Source: Acidimicrobiia bacterium
GTDB lineage: Bacteria; Actinomycetota; Acidimicrobiia; Spongiisociales; UBA5794
Assembly (NCBI GenBank): GCA_013003395.1
Contig: JABDJC010000117.1
Coordinates: 1-42,657 of the forward strand
Direction: 5' to 3'
DNA length: 42,657 nt
Both the position numbers and the translations under genes were made by a program. Positions within the stretch are counted from its first letter, which is position 1. Each line of letters opens with the position of its first letter. The notes beneath the pieces were generated by a model. That model saw nothing but the letters and a program-made list of their open reading frames with translations, was not told the origin of the DNA and ran no database searches. This document shows, piece after piece, positions 2,672 through 42,508 of the stretch.

Positions 2672-2673
2672 GA

Positions 2674-7962: not shown

Positions 7963-7974
7963 GACCAGAGACTA
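7963..7974 (-). promoter_or_regulatory. Leaderless-type -10 box before the YibE/F gene
   Basis: On the minus strand TAGTCT (7974-7969) is followed after 6 nt by the ATG at 7962. No Shine-Dalgarno sequence fits in this gap, so transcription probably begins at or next to the start codon. Confidence 0.6.
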
Positions 7975-7995
7975 GAACGCTGCGATCAATCGCTT

Positions 7996-8058
7996 CTGGT
8001 ACCTAAGGACTGTCGATCAGTGGCACTGTACGGGGGTCCAATGAGGCGCTAATTTGCC
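7996..8058 (+). promoter_or_regulatory. Predicted TauR operator and promoter of tpa-ald
   Basis: CTGGTACC (7996-8003) is followed by TGGCACTGTAC (8021-8031) and GGGTCCAA (8034-8041). The two GTAC cores are 29 bp apart. A -10-like TAATTT (8050-8055) lies 14 bp after the start of GTCCAA, so the second core overlaps the -35 position. The same elements with the same spacings precede pta. MocR regulators commonly bind such paired sites next to -35 regions. That TauR is the binder is inference. Confidence 0.7.
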
Positions 8059-8090
8059 TTCGGGGATCTTGCACCAATCTGGAGGCTGAG

Positions 8091-9425
8091 TTGGGTACTC
8101 GAACAGACCTGCGTCATCTCGTTCTGCACTTCACGAAAGGGAGCGATTGGGCGGCGGGCTCGGTCCCGATCTACGTGCGAGGCGAAGGCAACTACTTGTG
8201 GGACGACGCGGGAAACAAGTACCTCGACGGTCTCGCCGGCCTGTTCGTGGTGCAGATCGGTCACGGACGAACCGACTTCGGGAAGGCCGCTGCCAAGCAG
8301 ATGGAGCAGCTCGCCTACACGCCTTCTTGGGGAGCAACCCATCCCTCCTCGCTGGAAGCAGCCAAGCTGATCGCTGATCTGGCGCCAGGTGACCTCGACG
8401 CAGTCTTCTTCGTCACCTCCGGGTCCGAGGCCGTCGAGTCGGCGATCAAGTTCGCCAGGCAATATCACACGAGTCAGGGCAACCCGGGCAAGACGAAGGT
8501 CATCAGTCGCAACCTCGCCTATCACGGCACAACCATGGGTGCCTTGTCGGCAACCGGTCTCGACGACATCCGAACCCAGTTTCAGCCGCTCCTGCCGGGT
8601 TTCATCAAGGTGCCCAACACGCTGGGGGCCACTGATGGAATCGCGGCTGCGGCCGCAGTCGAGCAGGCCATTCTCGATGCAGGTCCCGAGACCGTCGGTC
8701 TGCTGATGGCAGAACCCGTGCAGAACGGCGGAGGAGCGATCGCACCGCCACCCGGGTATTGGCAAGAGCTTCGCCGGATCTGTGACAAGTACAACGTGTT
8801 GCTGCATTCGGACGAGGTGATCAATGCGTTCGGCCGCCTCGGTGAGTGGTTCGGCGCCGACTACGTCGATGTCGTTCCCGACATGATCTCCTTCGCCAAG
8901 GGTGCCACCTCTGGTTATGTGCCGATCGGTGGTTTGATCATCAGACGCCCACTAGTTGACAATCTGATGAACTGCGAGGGCGGCACGTTCACTCACGGCG
9001 CCACCTGGGGTGGGCATCCGGTTTCGATGGTCACCGCGATAGCCAATATCACCGCCATGCGAGACGAAGGCGTCCTCGAAAACGTTCGAGCCAACACTGC
9101 CGGGTTCCGGGATCGACTGGACAAGCTCACCGAGGCGCACGACGTCGTTGCAGAGGTGCGTGGTGCCGGATACTTCTACGCAGTCGACCTGTGTGTGAGT
9201 AGGGAGCGGGGAATCGACCTGACGGCGGAACAGGCGGCCGAGTATGTTGGCCAGGTGTTGCCAAAGGCGATCTCAGAGGCAGGCTTGCTCATCCGGGCTG
9301 ACAAGCGCGGGCGGCCGAAACTCATGCTCTCACCGATTCTCACCGCAGGGCCCGCCGAGCTCGACGAGCTGATGGAGAAGCTGAGCAGGGTGCTCGACTC
9401 GATGGCCTCTAGGCTCGCTACATGA
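8091..9425 (+). CDS. tpa: Taurine--pyruvate aminotransferase
   Basis: This class-III PLP aminotransferase (444 residues) should convert taurine plus pyruvate to sulfoacetaldehyde plus L-alanine in the cytoplasm. The predicted PLP lysine is K270 in ISFAKGATSGYVPIGG. Other class-III landmarks are VTSGSEAVESAIKFAR, SRNLAYHGTTMGALSATG and LLHSDEVINAFGRLGEWFG. The TTG start is set by GGAGG at 8081-8085, 5 nt upstream. Sequence alone would allow other omega-aminotransferase activities (putrescine, beta-alanine). The taurine assignment comes from the linked ald, tauABC, tauR, pta and xsc genes. It overlaps ald as ATGA and is predicted to be TauR-controlled. Confidence 0.88.
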   Translation: MGTRTDLRHLVLHFTKGSDWAAGSVPIYVRGEGNYLWDDAGNKYLDGLAGLFVVQIGHGRTDFGKAAAKQMEQLAYTPSWGATHPSSLEAAKLIADLAPGDLDAVFFVTSGSEAVESAIKFARQYHTSQGNPGKTKVISRNLAYHGTTMGALSATGLDDIRTQFQPLLPGFIKVPNTLGATDGIAAAAAVEQAILDAGPETVGLLMAEPVQNGGGAIAPPPGYWQELRRICDKYNVLLHSDEVINAFGRLGEWFGADYVDVVPDMISFAKGATSGYVPIGGLIIRRPLVDNLMNCEGGTFTHGATWGGHPVSMVTAIANITAMRDEGVLENVRANTAGFRDRLDKLTEAHDVVAEVRGAGYFYAVDLCVSRERGIDLTAEQAAEYVGQVLPKAISEAGLLIRADKRGRPKLMLSPILTAGPAELDELMEKLSRVLDSMASRLAT

Positions 9426-27094: not shown

Positions 27095-28018
27095 ATGACC
27101 ATGTTGGAGATCATGAGCTATCAGATGACCCATCTCGAGATGCTGGAATCGGAATCGATCCACATCTTTCGCGAAGCAGCCGCCGAGTGCGAGCGGCCAG
27201 TACTGCTGTTTTCCGGAGGGAAAGACTCGGCGGTTCTCCTGCGACTTGCCGAAAAGGCATTCGCACCAGGCAAGATTCCGTTTCCGGTGATGCACGTCGA
27301 CACGGGCCACAACTTTCCGGAAGCACTGGATTTCCGCGACCGCAGAATCAACGAATTGGGCGTCCGGCTCATCGTGGCCTCTGTGCAAGACGCCATCGAC
27401 GACGGTCGCGTGGTCGAAGATACGGGACCGCGTGCCTCACGTAACCGACTTCAGACAGTCACGCTCCTAGATGCCTTGAACGCAAACAAGTTCGACCTCG
27501 CATTCGGCGGAGGTCGTCGCGACGAGGAGAAGGCTCGGGCAAAGGAGCGAGTGTTCTCGTTCAGAGACGACTTCGGGCAGTGGGATCCGAAGAACCAGCG
27601 TCCGGAGCTGTGGTCGCTCTACAACGGCAAGCATCGCGCAGGGGAGAGCATCCGGGCGTTCCCGATCTCGAACTGGACCGAGATGGACGTCTGGCAGTAC
27701 GCCAAGCAGGAGCAGATGGATCTGCCGACCATGTATTTCTCGCATCGCCGCTCGGTCTTCCGCCGGGATGGCATGCTGATGGCGGCAAGCGAGTACATCG
27801 AACTCATGGACGGCGAAGAGCCGTTCGAGGCGACCGTGCGGTATCGCACCGTCGGCGACATGACCTGTACCGCTGCCATCGAGTCCTCGGCCGCGACGGT
27901 CGACGACATCATCGCCGAAGTCTCGGCAACAAGAATCACGGAACGCGGGGAGAGTCGTGCGGACGACCGCCTCGCGGAAGCCGCAATGGAAGATCGCAAG
28001 CGAGAGGGGTACTTCTAA
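27095..28018 (+). CDS. cysD: Sulfate adenylyltransferase subunit 2
   Basis: The ATP-pyrophosphatase subunit of ATP sulfurylase, 307 residues. With CysN it makes adenosine 5'-phosphosulfate from sulfate and ATP. The P-loop-like SGGKDSAVLLRLAEKAF is near residue 45, VMHVDTGHNFPEALDFRD follows, and FGGGRRDEEKARAKERVFSF and FPISNWTEMDVWQYA are family marks. I report ATG 27095. ATG 27113 (MSYQMTHLEMLE) aligns better with the usual N-terminus and has a GGAG only 3 nt before it, so the start is uncertain. The stop TAA shares its last base with the cysN ATG. Confidence 0.95.
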   Translation: MTMLEIMSYQMTHLEMLESESIHIFREAAAECERPVLLFSGGKDSAVLLRLAEKAFAPGKIPFPVMHVDTGHNFPEALDFRDRRINELGVRLIVASVQDAIDDGRVVEDTGPRASRNRLQTVTLLDALNANKFDLAFGGGRRDEEKARAKERVFSFRDDFGQWDPKNQRPELWSLYNGKHRAGESIRAFPISNWTEMDVWQYAKQEQMDLPTMYFSHRRSVFRRDGMLMAASEYIELMDGEEPFEATVRYRTVGDMTCTAAIESSAATVDDIIAEVSATRITERGESRADDRLAEAAMEDRKREGYF

Positions 28019-29274
28019 TGGAGCTTGTACGACTCGCCACCGTCGGCTCAGTCGACGACGGCAAGAGCACACTCATCGGTCGGTTCCTCTACGACAGCAA
28101 GCAGATCTTCGAAGACCAACTCGATGCGCTCGAACAGACGAGCTTGCTGCGCGGGGAAGAGACGATCGACCTCGCGCTGCTGACGGACGGCCTGCGCGCC
28201 GAACGTGAGCAGGGCATCACGATCGACGTGGCGTATCGCTATTTCGCCACGCCGCGCCGCAAGTTCGTCATGGCGGACACGCCGGGCCACATTCAGTACA
28301 CCCGCAACATGGTGACCGGAGCTTCGACAGCCGACGTGGCCCTCATTCTGGTGGATGCGCGCGCCGGCATCGTCGAGCAGACCCGGCGTCACGCCTTCAT
28401 CTCGAGCTTGCTGCAGGTGCCCCACCTCGTGCTGTGCGTCAACAAGATGGACCTGGTCGACTACGACCAGGAAGTCTTCGACCGCATCAAGGAAGAGTTT
28501 CGGCAGTTCGCGGCGAGGCTCGATGTCATCGACCTTCAGTTCATTCCCATGTCGGCGCTCAAGGGCGACAACGTCGTCAACCGATCGGCCAACATGCCGT
28601 GGTACGAAGGACATTCGTTGTTGCACTTCCTCGAAGAGGTGCACATTGCCTCTGACCGCAACATGATCGACTGCCGCTTTCCGGTGCAGTACGTCATCAA
28701 GCCGTCGAGCGAGTCGAACCCTGACTATCGGGGGTACGCAGGCAGCGTCGCCGGTGGCATCTTCAAGCCAGGCGACGACGTGATGGTGCTTCCTTCAGGG
28801 TTCTCCAGTCGGGTGAAGTCGATCGATCGGTTCGAAGGTCCCGTCGAAGAGGCGCATCCACCCATGAGCGTGGTGATGCGACTCGAGGACGAGATCGACA
28901 TCTCGCGTGGTGACATGATCTGTCGGCCACACAACCAACCGGACGTCGGGCAAGACATAGACGCAATGGTCTGTTGGCTCACAGAGAGCCGCACGTTGAA
29001 GCCAGGTGACAAGCTTCAGATCAAGCACACGACCAAGTCGGCACGAGCGCTGGTGAAGAACATGTACTACCGGCTCGACATCAACTCGTTGCATCGAGAC
29101 GAAGAAGCGAAAGAGCTCGAACTCAACCAGATCGGCCGCATTGCGATACGGACGACGGAGCCGTTGTTGTTCGACGAGTATCGCCGCAATCGCACCACCG
29201 GCAGCTTCATCCTCATCGACGAGTCCACGTTGAACACCGTTGGTGCTGGGATGATTCTCGGCCCAACTCAGTGA
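28018..29274 (+). CDS. cysN: Sulfate adenylyltransferase subunit 1 (GTPase)
   Basis: The regulatory GTPase subunit of ATP sulfurylase, 418 residues. GTP hydrolysis drives APS formation. The elongation-factor-like motifs are clear: G1 GSVDDGKSTLIGR, G2 region EREQGITIDVAYRYF, G3 DTPGHIQYTRNM, and G4 NKMDLVDY. Beta-barrel domains follow, ending in the LYDEYRRNRTTGSFILID-like segment (here LFDEYRRNRTTGSFILID). It is not fused to an APS kinase domain, unlike many CysNC proteins; the kinase is the next gene, overlapping as GTGA. Confidence 0.95.
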   Translation: MELVRLATVGSVDDGKSTLIGRFLYDSKQIFEDQLDALEQTSLLRGEETIDLALLTDGLRAEREQGITIDVAYRYFATPRRKFVMADTPGHIQYTRNMVTGASTADVALILVDARAGIVEQTRRHAFISSLLQVPHLVLCVNKMDLVDYDQEVFDRIKEEFRQFAARLDVIDLQFIPMSALKGDNVVNRSANMPWYEGHSLLHFLEEVHIASDRNMIDCRFPVQYVIKPSSESNPDYRGYAGSVAGGIFKPGDDVMVLPSGFSSRVKSIDRFEGPVEEAHPPMSVVMRLEDEIDISRGDMICRPHNQPDVGQDIDAMVCWLTESRTLKPGDKLQIKHTTKSARALVKNMYYRLDINSLHRDEEAKELELNQIGRIAIRTTEPLLFDEYRRNRTTGSFILIDESTLNTVGAGMILGPTQ

Positions 29275-29876
29275 CCGAGGCGACTCCGAACACCGTATGG
29301 CACGAAGGTGAGCTGGACCGGGCTGCCCGTTGGGAGACCATGGGCGTGCGCGGCGCAACCGTTTGGCTGACCGGGCTCTCTGGATCGGGCAAGTCGACCA
29401 TTGCTGCGGCCCTCGAGCGGCTGCTCGTTGACAGCGGCCAGCCGGCGTATCGACTCGACGGCGACAACCTCCGGCAGGGGATCAACGGCGACCTCGGGTT
29501 CTCTGCTGAAGACCGCACCGAGAACATCAGGCGTGTAGGTCAGATCGCTCGGCTGTTCGCCGACGCGGGTGTCGTGGCACTCGTGCCGGTCATCAGTCCT
29601 TATCGCTCAGATCGGGACGCGGCGAGGGCGGTCCACGCCGCCGCCGGTTTGCCGTTTGTCGAGATCTTCGTTGACACCCCGCTCGAAGTGTGCGAGCAAC
29701 GAGATCCGAAAGGCCTCTACGTCAAGGCCCGTGCGGGCGAGATCAAGGGGTTCACCGGCATCGACGATCCGTACGAGGCCCCTGAGTCTCCGGAGCTGGT
29801 GATCGACACCACGGTGACCGACGTGGCTGACGCGGCGCAGATGGTGTTCGCGATGCTCCGGCACCCTTCGCTCTGA
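29271..29876 (+). CDS. cysC: Adenylyl-sulfate kinase
   Basis: A 201-residue APS kinase that makes PAPS, the universal sulfate donor. The P-loop is GLSGSGKSTIAAALE at residue 35. The substrate loop DGDNLRQGINGDLGFS and the NIRRVGQIARLFADAG helix are intact, as is SPYRSDRDAAR and the DPKGLYVKARAGEIKGFTG lid. The GTG start overlaps the cysN stop. No PAPS or APS reductase follows, so in this context PAPS may serve sulfotransferases. Confidence 0.95.
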   Translation: MTEATPNTVWHEGELDRAARWETMGVRGATVWLTGLSGSGKSTIAAALERLLVDSGQPAYRLDGDNLRQGINGDLGFSAEDRTENIRRVGQIARLFADAGVVALVPVISPYRSDRDAARAVHAAAGLPFVEIFVDTPLEVCEQRDPKGLYVKARAGEIKGFTGIDDPYEAPESPELVIDTTVTDVADAAQMVFAMLRHPSL

Positions 29877-30296: not shown

Positions 30297-31073
30297 CTAG
30301 AGCGGGCCGATCATGTCGAGTACGGCACGGTCCAAACCGGGTGCTGCTGCGATCAGGCCGTCGTACTTCGGGCTGGGGTTGTTGAACGTCGGCTCGGAGC
30401 CATCGAGGCGTCCGACGTAGCCGCCTGCTGCCTGCACGATCGCCACACCGGCTGCGATGTCCCATTCGTTTTTGGGAACGAGCGTCCACGTCGCCTCTGC
30501 GAGTCCTGCGCCAACTCTTGCCAGCTTGTAGGCGACTGACCCCATCGGAACGACCGCGAACGCACGGTTCATGAAGCGATCCCACTCACCGCGCTTGATT
30601 TCGCTGTTGGAAGCGAGCACCTCGCCGCCGTCGAGGGTCGTCGGCCACTGCGTCACCTCGGCGCCGTTGAGCGTCACGCCGTGACCCGGGGCTCCCAGTA
30701 TCAGCTCACCCGCGGCAGGATTGACGATCCCCCCGGCGATCGCTTGCCCGTCGCGAACCAGACCGATGGAGACACACCATTGGGGGAGTCCCTCGACGAA
30801 TTCTCTCGTGCCGTCGATGGGGTCGACCACCCACACCCGACTGCACGAGAGTCGATTGGAGTCATCGGCGGTCTCCTCCGACAGCCAACCCTCGCCATCA
30901 CGTGGCAGCAGTTCGTGGAGGAGCTCGTCGACTGCGAGATCGGCCTTCGTCAACGGGTCGTCCCCCTGCTTGAAGCTGGCTTCGATCGATCCAGGTGTGA
31001 ATTGCTCGAGAACCGCTTCTGCGGCTTTGAGCGCATCGTGAATCCGGGTGAGGTCTTCGGTGGTTGCGGTCAT
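30297..31073 (-). CDS. cysQ: 3'(2'),5'-bisphosphate nucleotidase / inositol monophosphatase-family protein
   Basis: A 258-residue Mg-dependent phosphatase of the FIG superfamily. Metal-binding motifs are WLSEET near 63-68 and WVVDPIDGTREFVEGLPQ, near 82-99, with the later WDIAAGVAIVQAAGG. The CysQ-like DPIDGTREF form and the adjacent cysDNC genes favour PAP (3'-phosphoadenosine 5'-phosphate) removal. Inositol-phosphate or histidinol-phosphate hydrolysis cannot be excluded from sequence. It is convergent with the Nudix gene (10-bp gap). Upstream on the minus strand a TACAAT box lies about 90 bp before the ATG. Confidence 0.82.
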   Translation of the reverse strand: MTATTEDLTRIHDALKAAEAVLEQFTPGSIEASFKQGDDPLTKADLAVDELLHELLPRDGEGWLSEETADDSNRLSCSRVWVVDPIDGTREFVEGLPQWCVSIGLVRDGQAIAGGIVNPAAGELILGAPGHGVTLNGAEVTQWPTTLDGGEVLASNSEIKRGEWDRFMNRAFAVVPMGSVAYKLARVGAGLAEATWTLVPKNEWDIAAGVAIVQAAGGYVGRLDGSEPTFNNPSPKYDGLIAAAPGLDRAVLDMIGPL

Positions 31074-32449: not shown

Positions 32450-33337
32450 ATGTCATCAACGACCCTGGATCTGCTCACCGGGGCAGACTTTCGCTTCGGA
32501 CTGACGGTCGGCCTCATCGCGTTGCTCGTCGTCATCGCCGCATCGCTGGTCACCAGTTCTCGGGTTCCTCTTCTGGCAGGCGGTCTGAGCCTCCCGATCG
32601 TGCTGACGATCGTTTTGGATCCGCCAAGCACCGTGACTCTGGGCATCGCAGCGCTCGTGCTGGCCGGAGCGCTCTTTCCACAAACGCGGCGATACCCGAT
32701 GTTGCCTGCGCTCGCCGCCGTACCTGGCGCCATGTTCATTGCGAGCGCCTTCGATGGGATCCCTCCGAGCTGGACTCGGCTCTACGTCGTAGCGGTGATC
32801 GCACTGGTCTCACCACTCGCCGGCTCGCTCACGAATCGGTACTCGGGTCAAGCGTGGGGTCCCGCCCTGGTTGGCATTTCCGCAGTGGGTGTCTTCGCCG
32901 CCGTGCCCGATACCGAGCGAGCGTTGCTTGCGGTAGCGGCGTTGTTTCCGCTTGCGTTCCTGTCCTGGCCGGTGCCGCTCGCATCGCTGTCGCCGGCAGG
33001 GGCTTACGGTTCCGTTGGTGCGCTGGTCTACATAATCTCGGCCGACGGCCTGGCGCGACCCGAGGTTCTGCTCGGATTGGTCGCGGTGTTCGGGGTGTTG
33101 GTTGCCGAACCGCTGGCACGGTTGTTGGCCAAGACGTTGCCTTTCGGCGGCCTCGCAAGTGGATGGCGTGCGATCGCCATCGTCGGCGGCTTCCATCTCG
33201 TGATGGCTGCGGCTGCTGCTCGATGGGCTGCGCAGCAATCAAGTGCAACTTCCGCCCTCGGGACGGCCACGTTCGTGGTCATCGCGGGAGCGTTCGTGGT
33301 CTACTTGTCCCAGCCGAAGTCTCGGTCGATCAGCTGA
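32450..33337 (+). CDS. Polytopic membrane protein of unknown function
   Basis: A 295-residue protein that is hydrophobic almost throughout, with about nine to ten predicted helices (for example FGLTVGLIALLVVIAASLV, GIAALVLAGALFP, LYVVAVIALVSPLAG, GFHLVMAAAAARWAA, FVVIAGAFVVYLS). I do not recognise a family. The loops are short and lack obvious catalytic motifs. The start is supported by a TAGCCT box 7 nt upstream. The 3' end overlaps the convergent sulfotransferase gene by 37 bp. A transport or envelope role is possible but not shown. Confidence 0.75.
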   Translation: MSSTTLDLLTGADFRFGLTVGLIALLVVIAASLVTSSRVPLLAGGLSLPIVLTIVLDPPSTVTLGIAALVLAGALFPQTRRYPMLPALAAVPGAMFIASAFDGIPPSWTRLYVVAVIALVSPLAGSLTNRYSGQAWGPALVGISAVGVFAAVPDTERALLAVAALFPLAFLSWPVPLASLSPAGAYGSVGALVYIISADGLARPEVLLGLVAVFGVLVAEPLARLLAKTLPFGGLASGWRAIAIVGGFHLVMAAAAARWAAQQSSATSALGTATFVVIAGAFVVYLSQPKSRSIS

Positions 33338-34089
33338 TACAGCTCGTCGTTGTAGGGCCGGAAGTAGTCAGCAAGTTCGGCGCGGACGTGCTCTGGAAGG
33401 CCGGAGTCCGATGGGGGCGCCGAGACGTAGGAGTAGTTGGTGAACTCTGTTGGCTGCCATGGTTCGAGGTCGAGATGCTCCAAGATCTGACCGAACGCTC
33501 GCGGCGTATCTGCGTAGAACTCTTCGCTCTGCACGATGAGCATCTCCGGGTAGTGATCTAGCCAACGTCGTAGCTGCTCGGCGTAGTGACCGCGAGTCAG
33601 GTACGAATACCGCAAGAAGTGCGTGGCGTCGTAACGGGGGTCCGAAGCCATCAGTTGCAGGAGCGGAGTGATGTCCTCGGGCTCCCGAGCTACTGCTTGC
33701 TCGAAGGAGCGCTTCTCGAATTCGAGTCGCACCATGTGCTTGTAATGCGAGAACGCACGATCGATGGGGTTGCGCAACATCGCCACGATGCGGGCGTCCG
33801 GCAGTAGCGCCGCGGCGCGCTGCGCAGCCAGCGGGTGGACGAGATAGTCAGGCGTGGCTTCGAACGTCTGCAACGACCGACGGGCCACGACCCGCGATAC
33901 GGATCGTCGCATTTCCAGCGGAAAATGACCTCGGTACCAGCGTTCGCCCTCGCCATAGGCGCGGGTGAAGTACTCGGTTTCCTTCCGCAAGGTCGGAACG
34001 ACGCCCGGGTGCCGACCGAGATACTTGTAGAGGGAACTCGTCCCTCCCCGCTGCGTGCCGATGACCATGAAGTCCGGCAGTGCGCGCAA
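33301..34089 (-). CDS. PAPS-dependent sulfotransferase
   Basis: A sulfotransferase of the carbohydrate/heparan-sulfate type. The 5'-phosphosulfate loop is FMVIGTQRGGTSSLYKYL near 7-24, and the 3'-phosphate motif is MLRNPIDRAFSHYKHM near 104-119. It should move sulfate from PAPS to a hydroxyl or amine of an acceptor; the acceptor is unknown. TTG 34089 is the first canonical start (262 residues). The frame is open upstream to the ACP stop and reads like coding sequence (SDALRKVIPFDQRRR), so translation may start at CTG 34203 or another unusual codon. It is the last gene of the adenylation-ACP operon. Confidence 0.88.
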   Translation of the reverse strand: MRALPDFMVIGTQRGGTSSLYKYLGRHPGVVPTLRKETEYFTRAYGEGERWYRGHFPLEMRRSVSRVVARRSLQTFEATPDYLVHPLAAQRAAALLPDARIVAMLRNPIDRAFSHYKHMVRLEFEKRSFEQAVAREPEDITPLLQLMASDPRYDATHFLRYSYLTRGHYAEQLRRWLDHYPEMLIVQSEEFYADTPRAFGQILEHLDLEPWQPTEFTNYSYVSAPPSDSGLPEHVRAELADYFRPYNDELYQLIDRDFGWDK

Positions 34090-34210
34090 CGGTCCTGAAA
34101 TCGTACGTGCGTTCAGACGAGCGCGAGCTATGCGTCGCCGCTGATCAAACGGAATGACCTTGCGGAGAGCGTCTGAGGCCTTGTGTGCGAGGGCTCTGGC
34201 CAGAGGACCG

Positions 34211-34453
34211 CTACTTCTTGGCGGCGATCAAGCCCACGATCGACTTGATGGTCGCGAAGTTGTCAGGCACCAATTCGTCGTCATCCACCTCTACGCCGAG
34301 ATCGGACTCGAGGAACGACACGATCTGGAAGATCCCCATCGAATCGATGACCTCGTTCTCCAACAACGGGTAGTCGTCGGTCAGGTCTTCTGGTTTCCCT
34401 TGGAACTGCAACTCGCCGACGATGAAGTCGCGAATCTGTTGGTCTGCACTCAT
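34211..34453 (-). CDS. Stand-alone acyl/aminoacyl carrier protein
   Basis: An 80-residue phosphopantetheine carrier protein, acidic, with the attachment serine S38 in NEVIDSMGIFQIVSF. It should receive a 4'-phosphopantetheine arm and carry the product of the adenylation enzyme as a thioester. The ATG overlaps that gene's stop as ATGA. The pair resembles DltA/DltC or small natural-product loading modules. It is followed at 8 nt or more by the sulfotransferase. It is not the fatty-acid ACP by context, since no fab genes are near. Confidence 0.9.
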   Translation of the reverse strand: MSADQQIRDFIVGELQFQGKPEDLTDDYPLLENEVIDSMGIFQIVSFLESDLGVEVDDDELVPDNFATIKSIVGLIAAKK

Positions 34454-36027
34454 TTTTCCTCCAACTCAGAGCTTTCAAGGCTCTTTCGATCGATCTTTCC
34501 TGTGGATGTCTTCGGCAGCGTTTCTGTTCGAATGTCGAACTCGCCGGGGATCATGTATTTCGGGATCCGCTCGGCGATGAACTGCATCAGCGATGGTCTT
34601 GTCAGATCTTCGGCTGCCGATACGACGGCCTTGATTCGATTGGTGATCTTGTCGTCCGGTATGGCGATCACTGCGCACTCTACGACCGAGATGTGGGCGT
34701 TGATTGCCGTTTCGATCTCGCCGAGCTCGATGCGATAGCCACGGCTCTTGATCTGAGCGTCGCGTCTTCCCAAGAACGTGTAGTTGCCGTCCGGTTCCTC
34801 GATGACGAGATCGCCGGTCTTGTACACCGGATCGTCGAGTTCACCGCCGAAGGGGTTCGGAATTCTCGTCCGCGCAGTCCGCTCGGCATCCCCCCAATAG
34901 CCTTTCATGACCGATCCACCGCGTACAAACAGCTCTCCGGGGGTCCCTGGTTCGGCAAGGGTGCCTTCGTCGGTCACGACGAACGTGTCGACGTTGGCAA
35001 TCGCCTTGCCGATCGATGCCGGCGGAGCGTCTTCGTCCGGTGGCGCGGGAACGCGGTATGCGGTGCACACATTGGTCTCGGTCGGCCCGTACAGATTGGC
35101 GAAGGCGACGTGTGGCACGAGATGCATGAGGCGTGACAGGTACTTCGTCGGGAACACCTCTCCCGCGAAGAGGATGGTCTTCAGTGACGGCAGATCTCCG
35201 ACGGTCATCTTGGCGTGATCGACCATCATCGTGAGGATCGATGGCACGGCGTACATGACCGTGATGTCGTTGTTCTCGATGAGATTGCGAATCTCCATGG
35301 GGAACATGATGGCCCGACGCGGAACCATATGGACGGTTGCGCCGGCGAAAGCGGCTCCATAGAGATCGAAGGTCGAGAGGTCGAAATGCAGTGGCGCCAT
35401 TTGGGTGAGTTTGTCGTCTGCCGTGATGCCGTATTCCTCGACAGCCCACTTCACGAACGTCATGACGTTGCGATGCGACAACATGACGCCCTTGGGCTGG
35501 CCGGTTGATCCAGAGGTGTAGAGCATCACGGCGAGGTCCTCGTCGATGACCGCCACATCGGGCGACTTGTCAGAAGAGGCGTTGATGTCGCCGGCGTCGA
35601 GCAGATCGGCGCCGTGCGGAGCGGCGGTTGCTTCGTCGGCGTCGTGGGCGATGATCGTCGTCGCTCCTGCCGCCGAGAGCTCACCCCATGCGTTCGCCAG
35701 TTTTGCGGAGGTGACGAGGTGTCTGATGCCGCAATTCTCGACGATGTAGGCGGCACGAACAGGCGGGCTCGCAGGATCGATCGGGACGTACGCAGCTCCC
35801 GCCTTCATCGCGCCGTACAACGATACGACCGTCTCGATGCCCTTTTGCGCAAAAACTCCTACGCGATCGCCTCGGTTGACTCCTGCACCGATGAGCGTGT
35901 TGGCAACCCGGTTGGCTGCCTGATCGAGCTCTCGATAGGTCAGCGACCGGTCGCCGTCAACTATCGCGGCGTGGTCAGGCGTTCGCGCGGTCGAGTTTTC
36001 GAGGAGCTGATGGAGCAGGTCGTTCAT
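34450..36027 (-). CDS. Amino-acid adenylation enzyme (ANL superfamily)
   Basis: A 525-residue stand-alone adenylation domain. The core motifs are A3 LYTSGSTGQPKGV near 169-181, A5 NLYGPTETN near 310, A7 YKTGDLV near 400, A8 GRRDAQIKSRGYRIELGEIE and A10 PKTSTGKIDRKSL with the catalytic lysine near 510. The A4 region reads HFDLSTFDLYG, keeping the aspartate that binds the amino group of amino-acid substrates, as in DltA. It should adenylate an amino acid and load it on the adjacent carrier protein. The substrate cannot be fixed from the pocket by eye. A TTGAAC-17-TACAAT promoter lies upstream. Confidence 0.88.
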   Translation of the reverse strand: MNDLLHQLLENSTARTPDHAAIVDGDRSLTYRELDQAANRVANTLIGAGVNRGDRVGVFAQKGIETVVSLYGAMKAGAAYVPIDPASPPVRAAYIVENCGIRHLVTSAKLANAWGELSAAGATTIIAHDADEATAAPHGADLLDAGDINASSDKSPDVAVIDEDLAVMLYTSGSTGQPKGVMLSHRNVMTFVKWAVEEYGITADDKLTQMAPLHFDLSTFDLYGAAFAGATVHMVPRRAIMFPMEIRNLIENNDITVMYAVPSILTMMVDHAKMTVGDLPSLKTILFAGEVFPTKYLSRLMHLVPHVAFANLYGPTETNVCTAYRVPAPPDEDAPPASIGKAIANVDTFVVTDEGTLAEPGTPGELFVRGGSVMKGYWGDAERTARTRIPNPFGGELDDPVYKTGDLVIEEPDGNYTFLGRRDAQIKSRGYRIELGEIETAINAHISVVECAVIAIPDDKITNRIKAVVSAAEDLTRPSLMQFIAERIPKYMIPGEFDIRTETLPKTSTGKIDRKSLESSELEEK

Positions 36028-36153
36028 GGCATCACCGTGGAGTATCGCGTTGTCTTGTAGGGGACGAGCGTCCGACGTCGCGACTCAGCGCTTCGCGATG
36101 GACAAGCGATTCCCCCTTTGCGCTCGATGCCCCTGGCGGCACCCAACGATCGA

Positions 36154-36182
36154 ATTGTACGACAGGCTGGGCGTAGGTTCAA
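36154..36182 (-). promoter_or_regulatory. Sigma-70-type promoter of the adenylation-ACP-sulfotransferase operon
   Basis: On the minus strand, -35 TTGAAC (36182-36177) and -10 TACAAT (36159-36154) are separated by 17 bp. The -35 overlaps the stop of the glycosyltransferase gene. A leader of about 120 nt would precede the ATG at 36027. The rest of the 151-bp gap shows no other gene. Confidence 0.65.
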
Positions 36183-37324
36183 TGCCCTGGTTGAGCCATC
36201 GACAAAAACAGATCGGCCATCGCTGAGTTGACGGCATCCAGTCGATATCGATCTTCGAAGATCTCGTAGCCTCTCGCACCCATCGCGCTCGCCGTAGCCG
36301 GGTCCTTGGCCAAGCGGCCGATTGCGTCTGCCAGAGCCACAGGGTCTCCCGGCGGCGTCAACAGTCCCGATTCCCCGTCTGACACGACGGCGGCCAGTAC
36401 TGGAATGTCAGACGCAATCACGGGAATGCCGAGACCCATGGCCTCGATCACCGCCCCGCCGAGACCTTCGTAGACCGATGGGAATGCGAAGATGTCGGCA
36501 GCGGCAACCAGGTCAGGCACATCGCTGCGGTAGCCGAGGAACTCGACCACGCCGCTGAGGTCCAGCTCGGCGTGAGTCGCGGCAAGTTGACGGGTGACAT
36601 TGCCTTCCTTGCCGGCGATGACCGTTCGCATATTCGGCATGGGGTCCCGCAGCAGGGCTGCCGCATGAAGCAGCGTCTCCTGGCCCTTCTGGAATTCCTG
36701 GCGTCCCACGTTGATCACAAGCGTTGCGTCCTCGGCGATACCGAGTCGGCGCCTGCCCTCGGCGCGACGGTCGGCTGACGGTTCGCCCAGCCACTCCCGG
36801 TCGCGGCCACGCGGGATCACCGAAACTCGGTTCGGGTCGATGCCGAGTGCGCTCACGTTCGAGTCCTTGACCGGCTCGGTGAGCGCATGGAAATGATCAG
36901 TGAATCGCCTGGCCGTGAAGCCGTCGATGTGGCGCACGACGTGCAGCTTCCACGGTGTGATGTTCGGATCAGACATACGCGAGGGGTCGTACGACGTGTT
37001 CACAAGACTCGTCATCACCGGGACGTCACGGCCAATCGTCGCAATCCGGCCGATGATGTCCGAATCGAACAACGTCGTGTGCAACACGTCGGGCCGCTCC
37101 GAATCGATGACCGACCTGAGTTCGCGGAGGCGGCCGAACCAACGAGACGCCGTCATGTAGCGAACCGGCAGATCGGCGCTCTCCGTACCGACCTCGGTGC
37201 GGCGTCCGGAGAGACAGACGATCTTCGACTCGATACCTCGCTCGGCAAAGCCAGGAACCATTTGCGCCAGCGACCGCTCTGCGCCGCCGGCGCCCATCGA
37301 ATTGATGACGAACAACACCTTCAT
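36179..37324 (-). CDS. Glycosyltransferase family 4 (group 1)
   Basis: A 381-residue GT-B enzyme. The N-terminal Rossmann domain begins VLFVINSMGAGGAERSLAQM. The C-terminal donor-binding domain has VINVGRQEFQKGQETLL and the EX7E-type segment FPSVYEGLGGAVIEAMGLGIPVI, near 290-315, split here around its two glutamates. It should transfer a nucleotide-activated sugar to a lipid or glycan at the cytoplasmic face. A TAGAGT box ends 9 nt before the ATG, so it may have its own promoter. Its neighbours are surface-polysaccharide genes; the sugar and acceptor are unknown. Confidence 0.88.
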   Translation of the reverse strand: MKVLFVINSMGAGGAERSLAQMVPGFAERGIESKIVCLSGRRTEVGTESADLPVRYMTASRWFGRLRELRSVIDSERPDVLHTTLFDSDIIGRIATIGRDVPVMTSLVNTSYDPSRMSDPNITPWKLHVVRHIDGFTARRFTDHFHALTEPVKDSNVSALGIDPNRVSVIPRGRDREWLGEPSADRRAEGRRRLGIAEDATLVINVGRQEFQKGQETLLHAAALLRDPMPNMRTVIAGKEGNVTRQLAATHAELDLSGVVEFLGYRSDVPDLVAAADIFAFPSVYEGLGGAVIEAMGLGIPVIASDIPVLAAVVSDGESGLLTPPGDPVALADAIGRLAKDPATASAMGARGYEIFEDRYRLDAVNSAMADLFLSMAQPGH

Positions 37325-37371: not shown

Positions 37372-39624
37372 TCAGTCGTCCAGCTCGGCCAGTTCTTGGG
37401 CGACCTCGGCTTCGGCCATCAACATGCGCCGCTTGATGAGCAGCACTGCTCCAGCGCCGACCGCAGAGGCCACGACAGGAACCGGTTGGCTGAGTGCACC
37501 GATCTGACTCACGAGGCCCACTGTCGGCGTGCCGCCGGTAGCTGCTGCGACAGCGGCTGTCGTTCCGGTGAGGCCGTATGCGCCGGAGCGCTCGCCTGCA
37601 ACCTCGAACGGATTGAACAGGCGACCGAGGAAGCTGGAGCGACTTTCACCGGATCCGGGAACCTCTGAACCCCGACCGTCCTCGACAACGCCGTCTCTCG
37701 GCCGTCCGCGGCGTGGAGGACGAGTGGTCGTACTCGACTGCGGTGGCTGTTGCGTCGTGGTCGTCGTGTTGCGGGGTGGTCGGGACGTCGTCGTGGTCGA
37801 TCCCGGAGGTTGCGTTGTCGTGGTGGAACCGGGAGGTTGTGTCGTCGTGGTCGATCCCGGAGGTTGTGTCGTCGTGGTCGTAGCGGGAGGTTGTGTGGTG
37901 GACGTCGTACCACCGCCGCCGCCTCCGTCGACCACAGTCACGTTGCCGGTGTCGTTGATCTCCCAGGCGTTGACGCTCTGCTCGACATAGATGACCGTTC
38001 CCTTTGTGGCGTCCAGCACGGTCACTTCGTCGGCGACCAGGCCGGTGTCGATGAAGTGATATTCACCGGGATGGGTGCCGTTGTTCGAGGCGTTGTTGAC
38101 GTGCAACGAGGTGAGCAATCCACCGATGAACAGCGGCTTGCCGTCATTGTCAGAGTTGGATTTGGAGATGTGGACGGCTGCTTCACTTGCGTTGTACACG
38201 TAGATGTTCTCGAAGGTGAGCCGCGGGTCGTCCTCCGAGCTCTTGGCGTGAATGTCGACGCCGTAAACGCAGTCGTACACCTCGACATCTTTGTACAGAT
38301 ACCGGTTCGTGTACGCACCGTGCACGATGCCTGAAATCCCGAGGTTGTAGGCGAGGAATCGCTCGACAACGTGTCGATTGGGGTCGTTCTGCCAAGTGAA
38401 GATGCCGTTGGCCTTGTTGTTGTGGGCGACGCAGTCTTCGAAAACCCACAGGTTTGGCCGGCCGTTGCCCATGCTCGGCCACTGGTAGCCGGCGGCGTTC
38501 TTCGTACCGCCGATGCCGGTGGCGACGAGCCCCCGTGCGACGTTGCCAGAGCCGGATCCCATCATGAAGCCATGCAGGTACCAACCGCGAATCGGATCGT
38601 TCGGATGAACGAGAGCCGCGACGCAGTCTTCCCACAGGGTGTCGTCAGTGAGGTCGCTGGTATCGAGCACCGAACCGGTCGGAAGGTCCCACCAGTAAGG
38701 AGCGTCGGTGATGTCGTAGGCGATGCAGTCTCGAAGCGTCACGCCATGCGCAGCGTGAGGCACAAATGCACGATTGCCGGAGTGCCGGACGACGACACTT
38801 TCGATCACCGAACCGCGAGGTCCGTCGCCACCATGGTGGAAGTGAAGCGGGTAGCGCCCGAGGACACCCTTGTCGTTCTGGCGTGGCCCCATGTGAGATA
38901 TCTCAACGTTCTTCACGGTCTGCGGGACCATCGAGTGCAAGAACATCAGGTGGGCGCGCCCGCCTGGAGTTCCTGAGATCTTCACGTTGCGGGTGAGGTT
39001 CAGGATCTCAGACTTGAAACCCTGCGGCGAAGTCGGAACGGCGGAACCCTTGGTGAAGGACTTGAAGTTGGTGTAGTCGCCTGGAGTGACCGGGGTGGAG
39101 ATGAGCTCGTCGGTCGACAACCAGGTCGAGTGGTCGCCGGTGCGGTTCCACCCTTGCTTCGTCGTCCCAACGGCATCCAAGACGCCCATGTGGGTCACCC
39201 AGAGGCCGACGTCCGAGGCGAGGATCTCCATGCCGCCCCCTACGAACTTCGATTCGTTGACGTCGATGAACTTGACGGTGTGCGAGGCCGAAGCGCTCGG
39301 TCGCATCACCATGGTGCCGTAGACGACGATGTTGCCGCTCGACTCCAACACGAGATGCTTGTCAGGGTCGAAGGTGAGGAGCGCGCCATCGGTGACCGTC
39401 ACGCCCGCGACGGTGGTGGAGACGTCGACGATGATGGATCCGGTGACTTCCGCGATGTCGTTTGGGCCGGGAACGCGAAGGTCAGGCCATGCGGTCGGGT
39501 CTGACCAGTTCTTGGCTGCGAGAGCGAGGGCTGGGATTCGGGCTCCGAGCGCTGCGGCTACGAAGGGTGCGGCTGCCGTTGCTCCGGCGGCGCGCTGGAC
39601 AAAGGTGCGACGTGTGAGGGCCAA
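37372..39624 (-). CDS. Tat-exported G8-domain / CEMIP-like beta-helix surface protein
   Basis: A 750-residue exported protein. The start MALTRRTFVQRAAGAT has a twin-arginine motif. A G8-like domain (about 38-110: NWSDPTAWPDLRVPGPNDIA ... GNIVVYGTMVMRP) leads into a right-handed beta-helix region (about 200-550) with the CEMIP/TMEM2-like LGRYPLHFHHGGDG near 258 and CIAYDITDAPYWWDLPTGS. A TTTTQPPGS repeat stalk (about 575-630) precedes a basic stretch and one helix near the C-terminus (PVVASAVGAGAVLLIKRR), giving a wall-spanning anchored layout. CEMIP proteins depolymerise hyaluronan, so glycan binding or cleavage is plausible here. The TTG start has GGAG 9 nt upstream (39634-39637). Confidence 0.82.
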   Translation of the reverse strand: MALTRRTFVQRAAGATAAAPFVAAALGARIPALALAAKNWSDPTAWPDLRVPGPNDIAEVTGSIIVDVSTTVAGVTVTDGALLTFDPDKHLVLESSGNIVVYGTMVMRPSASASHTVKFIDVNESKFVGGGMEILASDVGLWVTHMGVLDAVGTTKQGWNRTGDHSTWLSTDELISTPVTPGDYTNFKSFTKGSAVPTSPQGFKSEILNLTRNVKISGTPGGRAHLMFLHSMVPQTVKNVEISHMGPRQNDKGVLGRYPLHFHHGGDGPRGSVIESVVVRHSGNRAFVPHAAHGVTLRDCIAYDITDAPYWWDLPTGSVLDTSDLTDDTLWEDCVAALVHPNDPIRGWYLHGFMMGSGSGNVARGLVATGIGGTKNAAGYQWPSMGNGRPNLWVFEDCVAHNNKANGIFTWQNDPNRHVVERFLAYNLGISGIVHGAYTNRYLYKDVEVYDCVYGVDIHAKSSEDDPRLTFENIYVYNASEAAVHISKSNSDNDGKPLFIGGLLTSLHVNNASNNGTHPGEYHFIDTGLVADEVTVLDATKGTVIYVEQSVNAWEINDTGNVTVVDGGGGGGTTSTTQPPATTTTTQPPGSTTTTQPPGSTTTTQPPGSTTTTSRPPRNTTTTTQQPPQSSTTTRPPRRGRPRDGVVEDGRGSEVPGSGESRSSFLGRLFNPFEVAGERSGAYGLTGTTAAVAAATGGTPTVGLVSQIGALSQPVPVVASAVGAGAVLLIKRRMLMAEAEVAQELAELDD
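37789..37902 (-). repeat. 27-bp tandem repeat coding TTTTQPPGS stalk
   Basis: GGAGGTTG recurs at 37805, 37832, 37859 and 37886, an exact 27-bp period, encoding nine-residue QPPGSTTTT-type units on the minus strand. The first unit is the variant QPPATTTTT. Such in-frame repeats can vary in copy number between strains. Confidence 0.9.
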
Positions 39625-39862: not shown

Positions 39863-40606
39863 CTATGGACCGGCGTACCCGCGCAACTTGCGCCGTAGCT
39901 TGTCTTCGGCCTGTAAGCCTCGATGCATCTTCCGTTTGAAGAAGACGACGCCGTCGCTCAGCTGGACCGGAATACGGTTGACTTTGAATTCGTCGGCCTG
40001 ATCGCCAGATCCGACTCCGCTCCCGACTGTGGCGCTCACGTAGAGGTCACGGACCACGGGATCGGCGTCTGCCGACCAGTAGCCCCAGGGATACGTGAAG
40101 TGCCGTGGTCTCTCACCGGTTCGAGACTCGATGAGTTCGTTGGACCGTTCGAGATCTTCCCGCGCTTCGCCCCGAGAGGTCGTTCGCATGTCACCGTGAC
40201 GGTGCGTGTGTGCGCCGAGCGTCATGAGACCGCTTTCTCGCATCGTCTTCACCTGATCCCAGGTGATCGGTTCGGCGCTCCCTCCAGGGAAGAGCGGTTC
40301 ACCGCTCTCGGTTGGGTGGGTCGTCAGGTACAGCGTGAAGGGGAGTTGACGGTCCAGGAGCAGGGGATAGGCGAGGCGAAACATGTCGTCGTATCCGTCG
40401 TCGAACGTGAGCACGTACTGGTTCTCTGTACCCGGCTGCGTTCGCGTCGCCAGCGCCGTCTCCAGATCCACGATCTCTCCGTTGTCGGCAAGCCAATCCA
40501 TTTGCGCTTTGAAGGCCGAGAGCGACACCTCCATCTCGCGGCCGAGCCCAGCGCCGATCTGGTGGTAAATGAGTATTCGCGGTCCACGCAGCGGACCCAT
40601 GAACAC
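39863..40606 (-). CDS. Polysaccharide deacetylase (NodB/CE4) family protein
   Basis: A 247-residue CE4-type deacetylase. The catalytic/metal motifs are TFDDGYDD (motif 1, catalytic base and metal Asp) near 67-74, HTHRHGD (motif 2, metal histidines) near 133, and FTYPWGY (motif 3) near 170. It should remove acetyl groups from N-acetylhexosamine units of a glycan. No signal peptide is evident. GTG 40606 is the first canonical start; ATG 40600 also fits. The frame stays open without a canonical start back to the stop of the upstream Wzz-like gene. It lies between the Wzz-like and G8-like genes, suggesting surface-glycan modification. Confidence 0.88.
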   Translation of the reverse strand: MFMGPLRGPRILIYHQIGAGLGREMEVSLSAFKAQMDWLADNGEIVDLETALATRTQPGTENQYVLTFDDGYDDMFRLAYPLLLDRQLPFTLYLTTHPTESGEPLFPGGSAEPITWDQVKTMRESGLMTLGAHTHRHGDMRTTSRGEAREDLERSNELIESRTGERPRHFTYPWGYWSADADPVVRDLYVSATVGSGVGSGDQADEFKVNRIPVQLSDGVVFFKRKMHRGLQAEDKLRRKLRGYAGP

Positions 40607-40666: not shown

Positions 40667-42508
40667 TCAGGTCCCAGACTTGGTGGTGGTGCTCGGCTCA
40701 GCGACGTCGTCGGACCCCGCCTTCTTCTCCGCAGCGGCCACCGTCTCTTTTGGAGCCTTCATGCGCAATCGGTAGCGAGACAAGATCACGGCACCGATCA
40801 CATTTACCTGGCGTCGAGCGAGATCGAGCTGCGCATCCTCGACATCCAGCACAGTTGCTCTGCCTTGGCCGGCCGCAACGATCATGTAGTCCATCCTCTG
40901 AGCAACAACGGTGGTCGTCGGATTCTCGATTGCTGGAGCTGCCACCAACACGACATCGGCCTGCTGCTTGGCTGCCGCGAGTGCGGCCCGGAACGGCTCG
41001 CTCGACACGGTGTCGGCAGCATCGCCAACACCGATGCCGGATGGCAAAGCAGTGAGCCCTTCCATCACCTCCGGTAGTGCCGCCAACGTCTTGCCGAAGT
41101 GCACACCCGACTCCGAGCCGGTGCTGGATGCAAGCATCTCGGTGAGCGTGACATTTGCTGGGCCGTACTCTGCCAATTCGGTGTCAGAGTCGAAGTCGGT
41201 GTCGATCAGCAGCACTGAGCGACCGGCAACGGCCAGACTGGTCGCCAAGTCCGCTGCCAGCTCCTGAACATTCTGCGACTTCGCTCTCAGCCCGGTGAGG
41301 CCGACGGTCATGGGACCCTTGGCCATGGGAGCCTCGAGCGCTGCCCGGATGGTCTGCACCTCACGGCGGCGGCGATTCGGACCGACCGAGGTGTACCACG
41401 GACGATCATCAGGCACGAGTCGTGGCCGCAATGGCACCTCGGCGAGGCCGGAGAGTTCTTCGAGGTCGTCGACCACCCAGACCTTCTTGCGGAACAGGTC
41501 GAACCCGGCAATCGCAACCGCGGCGAGGAAGATGCCTACCAAGACACCGGTGAGACCGGAAGTCAGTCGTGATTGGAACTCCGGAGTGGTGTCTTGAACC
41601 GAAACGTCGCCCGTCACGGTTGCCTGACCGCTCTCTTCTTGGAGTGACAACGACAGGGCGATGTACTCGTCTTCGAGGTCCTGGATGCGTTGTTCGAGGA
41701 CGAGTTCGTCGAGAGAGTCGACCGTCGACAACGGAATCTCTTCCATCGCGGGATCGACGGCCGGCAGTTCGGCGATGCGAGCCTCGACGTCCCGGAGCGC
41801 GTTCAGGAGGGTGTCGAGCTCGGCTTGCAGCGCGGCCACGTCAACGGGTTCTTCAGGCTCCTCGCCTTCTGCCGGGGCTGTCGTGCCCAACAGCTCGCCA
41901 AGGGTCTCGGCGATTTCGGCATCCTCGATCTGGACTGCAATGTCCTCGGCACGGTTCTGCAAGTCGGCCCGAACGGCGTCGAAAAGCGAACGTTGTACCT
42001 CGACCTCGGGATCCGGTTCGACCACGACAGGGGCTGGCGTGAGCGAGGCTCGTTCTTCGTTCAAGACCTCGAGTCGCTCAACGATGACATCGATTCTGTC
42101 CGAGATGGTCTCGACCACCGTCATCGATTGCTCAGCGTTCAGGTACTCCTCGCGAAAGGTGGTTGCCAGCTCCTCGGCTTCTTCAGCCTGGCGGGCGGAG
42201 GCCCTGAAGATCAGTTCTGCCGCGGCGACGTCAGCTGTGACTTGTAGCCGTGAGTCGTTCTCGACGCCTTGTGCTGCGAGCACATTGTCTGCGTCGGCTT
42301 TTGCCGAGTTGAGGCGACGTTCGAAAGCATCGTCTGACTCGTTTTCGAGTTTGATGAATTCCATGGGCGCGCTCGCGACGAACGTCCTGCGTATCTGCTC
42401 GTTGCTGCGCGAGGTGATGATGACCGAGATGGCGCCGCCCAGAATCGCGGCGATCAGGAGGATCCACCAGGAAGCGCGTAGTACCAGATAAAGGCGTCGA
42501 GGGCTCAA
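40667..42508 (-). CDS. Wzz-like chain-length protein fused to a degenerate BY-kinase-type domain
   Basis: A 613-residue two-helix protein. Helix 1 (about 13-33, WWILLIAAILGGAISVIIT) and helix 2 (about 316-336, GLTGVLVGIFLAAVAIAGF) flank a long acidic coiled-coil region, as in Wzz/Wzc polysaccharide co-polymerases. The C-terminal domain resembles CpsD/Wzc tyrosine kinases: LLIDTDFDSDTEL near 431 keeps the Walker A' core. However, the P-loop position reads GLTGLRAKSQNVQELA, without GKS/GKT, and no tyrosine cluster ends the chain. It is probably a non-catalytic regulator of polysaccharide length or export. The start is TTG 42508; no strong ribosome site is seen. Confidence 0.82.
   Translation of the reverse strand: MSPRRLYLVLRASWWILLIAAILGGAISVIITSRSNEQIRRTFVASAPMEFIKLENESDDAFERRLNSAKADADNVLAAQGVENDSRLQVTADVAAAELIFRASARQAEEAEELATTFREEYLNAEQSMTVVETISDRIDVIVERLEVLNEERASLTPAPVVVEPDPEVEVQRSLFDAVRADLQNRAEDIAVQIEDAEIAETLGELLGTTAPAEGEEPEEPVDVAALQAELDTLLNALRDVEARIAELPAVDPAMEEIPLSTVDSLDELVLEQRIQDLEDEYIALSLSLQEESGQATVTGDVSVQDTTPEFQSRLTSGLTGVLVGIFLAAVAIAGFDLFRKKVWVVDDLEELSGLAEVPLRPRLVPDDRPWYTSVGPNRRRREVQTIRAALEAPMAKGPMTVGLTGLRAKSQNVQELAADLATSLAVAGRSVLLIDTDFDSDTELAEYGPANVTLTEMLASSTGSESGVHFGKTLAALPEVMEGLTALPSGIGVGDAADTVSSEPFRAALAAAKQQADVVLVAAPAIENPTTTVVAQRMDYMIVAAGQGRATVLDVEDAQLDLARRQVNVIGAVILSRYRLRMKAPKETVAAAEKKAGSDDVAEPSTTTKSGT

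Follow-up and report, generated by a model that had tools for sequence, protein, structure and literature searches.

What product would draw on an amino-acid adenylation enzyme, a carrier protein, and a PAPS sulfotransferase encoded side by side among glycan genes? The question is raised by the window, that is, the whole 42,657-nucleotide stretch of Acidimicrobiia DNA analysed here, whose host genome is fragmented and 82% complete (Table 1). Among the ORFs of the window, the 3 genes form a tight minus-strand operon, as the initial annotation had proposed: the adenylation gene is joined to the carrier gene by an ATGA overlap, and the carrier stop codon is followed after 7 nt by the probable start of the sulfotransferase gene. 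The identity and the end of the sulfotransferase gene were correctly annotated, but its start at TTG 34089 was not; the frame is longer, sulfotransferase orthologs align upstream of this TTG, and the CTG at 34203 is the likely start codon. The promoter match reported upstream of the operon is present; it is weak evidence because chance alone would yield one match of this kind in the scanned stretch (1 found versus 1.0 ± 1.0 in shuffled sequences). The polytopic membrane protein suggested as a partner was rejected: its gene is convergent on the plus strand and therefore lies outside the operon, and among the loci examined a weak relative was detected at just one other.

Table 1. Coordinates, strands, and assignments of the features discussed.
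Feature	Positions	Strand	Evidence or remark
CysD, sulfate adenylyltransferase small subunit	27095..28018	+	NCBIfam model above cutoff
CysN, sulfate adenylyltransferase large subunit	28009..29274	+	TIGR02034 above cutoff
CysC, APS kinase (makes PAPS)	29271..29876	+	TIGR00455 above cutoff
Inositol-monophosphatase-family protein, CysQ-like or HisN-like	30297..31073	-	PF00459
Polytopic membrane protein	32450..33337	+	Convergent to sulfotransferase gene
PAPS sulfotransferase, heparan-sulfate 3-O-sulfotransferase-like	33301..34203 (likely start)	-	PF13469 and PF00685 above cutoff
Stand-alone type II carrier	34211..34453	-	PF00550; phosphopantetheine Ser in VIDSMGIF; ATGA overlap
Stand-alone adenylation enzyme, predicted L-proline specific	34450..36027	-	TIGR01733 above cutoff; PltF likeness; code DLFYLALVCK
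Sigma-70-like promoter match, TTGAAC-17-TACAAT	36154..36182	-	Chance-level evidence
GT4 glycosyltransferase	36179..37324	-	PF00534
Secreted CEMIP-type beta-helix protein	37372..39624	-	PF24606
Polysaccharide deacetylase	39863..40606	-	PF01522
Wzz/BY-kinase-like chain-length protein	40667..42508	-	Contig end; assigned by eye, no Pfam match
PigA/RedW/AnaB-type prolyl-carrier dehydrogenase, another contig	G000:C70:3548-4696		Glu of WERG motif kept

The adenylation enzyme retains the annotated core motifs and amino-binding aspartate (D216). Comparison between this enzyme and PDB entries revealed that (i) its best stand-alone relative is PltF (6o6e; 1.3e-93), an L-proline:carrier-protein ligase; (ii) PltF is also the top match across the pocket region; and (iii) 8 of the 9 aligned pocket residues are common to both proteins. 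The pocket code, which was taken from the alignment with PltF, is common to the adenylation orthologs but differs in G338 and G357, and the code string had no match in the published literature searched. From its sequence, the enzyme is predicted to be specific for L-proline, which it very probably loads onto the carrier. A fatty or aryl acid ligase was rejected, being outscored by both the amino-acid adenylation model and PltF, which supports the earlier proposal of amino-acid activation. The PDB relatives of the carrier include the prolyl carriers PigG and PltL, and its serine is kept, consistent with the carrier loading that had been proposed as part of the system.

The initial annotation likened the adenylation enzyme and the carrier to DltA and DltC, with the sulfotransferase standing in the place of DltB. 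The operon does share a stand-alone adenylation enzyme and a small carrier with DltABCD, but the adenylation enzyme is nearer to PltF than to DltA (DltA models scored 273–281 bits versus cutoffs of 476–560), the enzyme and the carrier together are closer to PltF–PltL and PigI–PigG, and no MBOAT (DltB-type) gene was found in the 82%-complete genome. The analogy was rejected on these scores, the pocket residues, and the MBOAT search; at other loci, the sulfotransferase has Wzz, deacetylase, and glycosyltransferase genes as its conserved neighbours, which does not fit a substitute for DltB. The second-best NCBIfam model for the adenylation enzyme is TIGR03098, the exosortase-A-associated ligase, which describes AMP-forming ligases that, as here, lie near exopolysaccharide genes; membership was rejected on a score of 354 bits, under the curated cutoff of 592 bits.

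The sulfotransferase matches 3-OST-3A1 in the PDB (6.6e-22) with its PAPS loops and the Glu of FEATPDY aligned, and its orthologs likewise align at the loops that bind PAPS and at the position of the catalytic Glu. It resembles a carbohydrate (heparan-type) PAPS sulfotransferase, and a glycan acceptor is predicted. The same window carries the PAPS synthesis genes cysD, cysN, and cysC, which had been overlooked. Because neither a PAPS reductase nor a sulfite reductase was found in the 82%-complete genome, CysD, CysN, and CysC probably feed sulfation. For the inositol-monophosphatase-family protein that is also encoded in the window, the CysQ and HisN models both scored under cutoff.

The GT4, deacetylase, and Wzz-like genes upstream of the operon, together with the heparan-type sulfotransferase, support the sulfation and glycan context that was described initially. 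Parts of this neighbourhood recur elsewhere: a Wzz–sulfotransferase–deacetylase–GT4 block in 2 genomes (G263 and G010) holds relatives of the window GT4 and sulfotransferase, relatives of the window deacetylase adjoin sulfotransferase orthologs, a Wzz-like gene again lies beside sulfotransferase and deacetylase genes at 2 loci (L165 and L167), and the beta-helix gene recurs by adenylation and dehydrogenase genes, adjacent at L111 and L121 and near at L116 and L204. Recurrence of the triplet as a strict unit, by contrast, was not borne out, as in contiguous form the triplet is essentially limited to the window; the sole other genome with the 3 genes side by side is G322, in which the sulfotransferase gene is inverted. 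This confinement and the chance-level promoter match would fit a fortuitous neighbourhood, in which the adenylation–carrier pair and the sulfotransferase are adjacent but functionally unrelated. We consider this improbable in view of the tight spacing, the second adjacency in G322, and the co-occurrence of the adenylation, sulfotransferase, and SGNH-like (described below) families in the same few genomes, with p values, in which kinship among genomes is ignored, of 2e-9 to 4e-11 overall and, for the 60 nearest genomes, of 1e-5 to 3e-4. The co-occurring families lie within exopolysaccharide gene neighbourhoods or close to them.

Within the same clade, most adenylation orthologs are adjoined by a gene for a PigA/RedW/AnaB-type prolyl-carrier dehydrogenase. 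This gene is absent from the window operon, and one is located on another contig (C70) of the same genome. The C70 dehydrogenase is 66% identical to a relative linked to an adenylation gene, and is accompanied by a second carrier and 3 new accessory proteins, namely an SGNH-like, a lipoyl-like, and a 213-residue protein. The SGNH-like family was found in 8 of 395 genomes of the class and, in a phylum sample of 346 genomes, in this genome alone; a profile search of the PDB with the SGNH-like protein returned nothing useful, and its single-sequence structure prediction had a pLDDT of 30. Because relatives group these genes with the proline-oxidising enzyme and with surface-sugar genes, the data suggest an undescribed sulfated surface sugar with proline-derived (pyrrole-type) groups. 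If the proline were instead left unoxidised, the operon would prolylate a glycan or another acceptor, and the C70 dehydrogenase and second carrier would serve another pathway. Such an arrangement would account for the lack of a dehydrogenase gene in the operon and for the orthologs in G042 and G322, which have no close PigA-type gene genome-wide. It is nevertheless improbable, as most orthologs of the clade are linked to a dehydrogenase gene and the C70 segment around the dehydrogenase yielded no second adenylation enzyme.

We consider it an even prospect that the operon supplies 2 decorations, a carrier-made proline-derived acyl group and a sulfate, for one surface glycan. The adenylation enzyme would make prolyl-AMP from L-proline and load the stand-alone carrier, and the C70 dehydrogenase would then oxidise the carrier-bound proline to a pyrrole-2-carboxyl or an AnaB-like pyrroline-carboxyl thioester. 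An acyl transferase, possibly the C70 SGNH-like protein, may move this group to an exopolysaccharide sugar, which is the weakest step. As homology, co-occurrence, and gene context suggest, the sulfotransferase would sulfate the same glycan with PAPS from CysD, CysN, and CysC. The outcome would be an exopolysaccharide or glycolipid that bears sulfate and proline-derived heterocyclic acyl groups. Counted against this reading are the location of the C70 dehydrogenase on a separate contig without a physical link to the operon, the lack of a close PigA-type gene in G338 as well as in G042 and G322, all of which carry the adenylation gene, the divergent pocket codes, the candidate status of the acyl transferase, the confinement of the triplet, the disregard of kinship in the co-occurrence p values, and the incompleteness and fragmentation of the genome.

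The PltF–PltL–PltE, PigI–PigG–PigA, and CloN4–CloN5–CloN3 cassettes resemble the window in their stand-alone proline-type adenylation enzyme and type II carrier, and the thiotemplated proline-to-pyrrole cassettes and the AnaB-type prolyl-ACP dehydrogenase are matched by the dehydrogenase that adjoins the adenylation genes of relatives. Known characterised proline/pyrrole cassettes all yield small molecules (PMC11177257), and the prolyl or pyrrolyl carrier might likewise feed a specialised metabolite or glycolipid that is sulfated and perhaps also glycosylated, the adjoining exopolysaccharide genes being unrelated. A related adenylation–carrier–dehydrogenase set adjoins NRPS genes at another locus (L128) of the same genome, and the G042 ortholog also adjoins NRPS genes. 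We regard a small-molecule pathway as unlikely, however, since the exopolysaccharide genes (GT4, deacetylase, beta-helix, and Wzz) recur in most ortholog contexts, including another class, and the sulfotransferase resembles enzymes of the heparan glycan type. Unlike the pyrrole cassettes, the window operon lacks its own dehydrogenase gene, has no NRPS, PKS, halogenase, or release genes found nearby, and lies among exopolysaccharide genes in the company of a sulfotransferase and of genes for PAPS synthesis.

The window shares with sulfated exopolysaccharide clusters a sulfotransferase gene amid GT4, deacetylase, and Wzz-like genes, together with a PAPS supply. In the available portions of the reports on synechan xss (PMC8205485) and Actinoplanes wps-1 (PMC13390465), PAPS sulfotransferases lie among Wzx/Wzy-type genes, no adenylation–carrier module is noted in either cluster, and bacterial sulfated polysaccharides are considered rare beyond cyanobacteria; wps-1 includes a sulfotransferase of the heparan type, and a sulfate-activation gene close to it is required for the phenotype. 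The literature searched contained no precedent for bacterial polysaccharides that carry pyrrole-carboxyl or prolyl groups, nor for a sulfotransferase exopolysaccharide of Acidimicrobiia. We propose tentatively, as a somewhat doubtful extension, that the locus represents an undescribed class of Acidimicrobiia sulfated exopolysaccharides, in which pyrrole-2-carboxyl groups from carriers would be installed with the new SGNH-like, lipoyl-like, and 213-residue protein set. The small molecules are where thiotemplated proline/pyrrole chemistry is known; if it is genetically linked to a sulfated polysaccharide, pyrrole tailoring would also reach a polymer of the cell surface, and a novel glycan type could be tested through a defined set of genes in an actinobacterial class that has received little study.

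In clorobiocin biosynthesis, the carrier-made pyrrole is moved to noviose by CloN1, CloN2, and CloN7 (PMC11218499). The acceptor here would differ in being a polymer or repeat unit, and the candidate transferase in being SGNH-like, with no CloN2/CloN7-type transferase identified; in both cases, a proline-derived acyl group on a carrier would pass to a sugar hydroxyl, and clorobiocin biosynthesis involves 2 carriers, as are present in this genome.

The window operon consists of three minus-strand genes (table below), and gene calls and homology searches bear out the parts list of the initial annotation: an adenylation enzyme, a carrier protein and a sulfotransferase. The sulfotransferase reading frame extends upstream of the TTG originally taken as its start, and the extension is covered by ortholog alignments; judged from the sequence, the start is likely a CTG at 34203, 7 nt past the carrier stop. 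Because of this start and the ATGA overlap, the three genes are tightly packed. The promoter stressed in that annotation is a promoter-like match of chance-level frequency, and its suggested polytopic membrane partner is encoded convergently to the operon. The CEMIP-type β-helix protein recurs adjoining adenylation/dehydrogenase genes and could serve as a matrix component or modify polysaccharides.

Features in the window, in other contigs of its genome (C70, C191) and at related loci
Feature	Location	Strand	Remarks
Adenylation enzyme, 525 aa	within 36027-33301, first gene	minus	
Carrier protein, 80 aa	within 36027-33301, second gene	minus	start overlaps adenylation stop (ATGA)
Sulfotransferase	within 36027-33301, third gene	minus	
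Polytopic protein	32450-33337	plus	
GT4 glycosyltransferase	upstream of adenylation gene	minus	
CEMIP-type β-helix protein, secreted	37372-39624, upstream	minus	long Thr/Pro-rich stretch
Polysaccharide deacetylase	upstream of operon	minus	
Wzz/BY-kinase-like protein	upstream	minus	assigned by eye; upstream gene run reaches contig end
CysD, CysN, CysC	27095-29876		
Dehydrogenase	C70, 3548-4696		
Genes for 213-aa, lipoyl-like and SGNH-like proteins	C70 (L139), 6164-8226		three small genes
Dehydrogenase-adenylation-carrier set	C191 (L128), 2000-9354		followed by two large NRPS genes
Region with adenylation relative, DMPYTAQVC code	L115, 9478-16676		
G322 sulfotransferase ortholog	L119, 6085-6897	minus	in-frame TGA

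The adenylation enzyme scored above the cutoff of the amino-acid adenylation model TIGR01733 and below the cutoffs of the DltA and exosortase-ligase models. Searches of the PDB revealed that (i) its closest stand-alone relative was PltF (L-proline--[L-prolyl-carrier protein] ligase; 1.3e-93), with DltA behind (5e-67), so that the Dlt analogy drawn earlier does not hold; (ii) the pocket half alone also matched PltF best; and (iii) PigG and PltL, both prolyl/pyrrolyl carriers of type II, are among the relatives of the carrier. With pocket positions that follow GrsA numbering, cross-checked against the motifs, alignment to PltF gave the code D-L-F-Y-L-A-L-V-C versus D-L-L-Y-L-A-L-V-C in PltF, and the Lys at the tenth position is also kept. 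The adenylation enzyme and carrier thus very probably load proline. In the 50–59% adenylation clade, the window code occurs in 8 of the 12 other class genomes, the PltF code in 2 (G042 and G322) and a divergent code, DMPYTAQVC, in the 2 others (G338 and G357). The G338/G357 relatives (L115, L120) adjoin paired hydrolase-like genes, which together with their code suggests a different substrate.

At most ortholog loci, an acyl-CoA-dehydrogenase-type gene lies immediately upstream of the adenylation gene. The best models for those tested were the prolyl-carrier dehydrogenases PigA and RedW, under curated cutoffs (437–465 bits for PigA versus a cutoff of 500, with the more distant L027 scoring lower). 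No dehydrogenase gene was found within the window; one on C70 is 66% identical to that adjoining the G361 ortholog. Its top PDB match was the prolyl-ACP dehydrogenase AnaB (5.8e-124), and its Glu245 aligned to the Glu in the AnaB MEWERG stretch, presumably the catalytic base. The C70 dehydrogenase would, with fair probability, oxidise the carrier-bound proline. No close PigA-type gene was found in three adenylation-bearing genomes (G042, G338 and G322). Clorobiocin is a chemical precedent for the proposed carrier-made, proline-derived group on a sugar: CloN4 activates L-proline, CloN5 binds it and CloN3 oxidises it, and the oxidised group moves to a second carrier and then onto a sugar hydroxyl (PMC11218499; for the general logic of thiotemplated proline/pyrrole cassettes, PMC11177257).

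The C70 dehydrogenase neighbourhood also contains a second carrier (38% identity to the window carrier) and three accessory genes, encoding a 213-aa protein, a biotinyl/lipoyl-like protein and a 335-aa SGNH/GDSL-like protein with a Pfam score under the cutoff. In G122, G051 and G001 these three share contigs with the adenylation and dehydrogenase genes. In G263, G010 and G352 they form a block, after which G263 and G352 have a second sulfotransferase-like gene (family assigned by eye). Window-type sulfotransferases have SGNH-like copies next to them or close by in G357, G352, G001 and G263. Relatives of the three-gene set at L114, L116, L121, L188, L189 and L190 are tied to adenylation/sulfotransferase genes. 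Alignment of the SGNH-like proteins showed invariant GxCD and DFAH motifs, compatible with a Cys-nucleophile SGNH enzyme; PDB profile search and structure prediction gave this reading no support. That the SGNH-like protein acts as a transferase is a tentative, rather doubtful proposal. The SGNH family was absent from a 346-genome phylum sample except for the window's own genome.

The best PDB relatives of the sulfotransferase were heparan sulfate 3-O-sulfotransferase 3A1 and heparan N-sulfotransferases, and the PAPS loop, the FEATPDY Glu, the second loop and the C-terminal FGWD aligned with these relatives and with orthologs. A Wzz-sulfotransferase-deacetylase-GT4 block recurs around orthologs (G263, G010). 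The TGA in the G322 ortholog reflects decay or a draft-assembly error. The own genome has eleven Sulfotransfer_3 matches, and the window encodes the PAPS-making CysD, CysN and CysC. Because neither another PAPS-reductase-family protein nor a sulfite reductase was found in this 82% complete genome, CysD-CysN-CysC probably serves sulfation, not cysteine synthesis; the genome apparently has sulfate activation without assimilatory reduction. Reports of non-cyanobacterial sulfated EPS clusters are only just starting (PMC13390465; PMC8205485), one describing a heparan-type sulfotransferase with a sulfate-activation gene close by in the Actinoplanes wps-1 locus (PMC13390465).

Among 395 class genomes, the window's included, 13 carry the adenylation clade, 8 the SGNH family and 7 close sulfotransferase orthologs (E <= 1e-58, a cutoff picked after the list was seen). 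The families overlap in 7/8, 6/7 and 6/7 cases (hypergeometric p = 5e-11, 2e-9 and 4e-11, ignoring phylogeny); within the 60 nearest genomes, co-occurrence gave p = 1e-5 and 3e-4, phylogeny likewise ignored. The triplet is not conserved as a contiguous unit: outside the window, G322 alone has that pair of adenylation and carrier genes beside the sulfotransferase, which is inverted there. In G418, from another class, one contig carries the adenylation gene, carrier, β-helix protein, GT4s, deacetylase and dehydrogenase. Gene content, homology, pocket residues and co-occurrence are direct observations. The system brings known chemistries together in a new way, with a putative product. The sulfated, aminoacylated glycan put forward initially stands as a possibility, and we lean towards a glycan as acceptor; the initial annotation had missed the dehydrogenase, the PAPS genes and the probable specificity for proline.

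The C191 set carries the pocket code DLLYLGVGC or similar, related to but distinct from that of the window. Similar sets recur in the order (L125, L126, L129 and L130) and possibly represent an NRPS pathway not yet described, with an oxidised amino acid as its starting unit.
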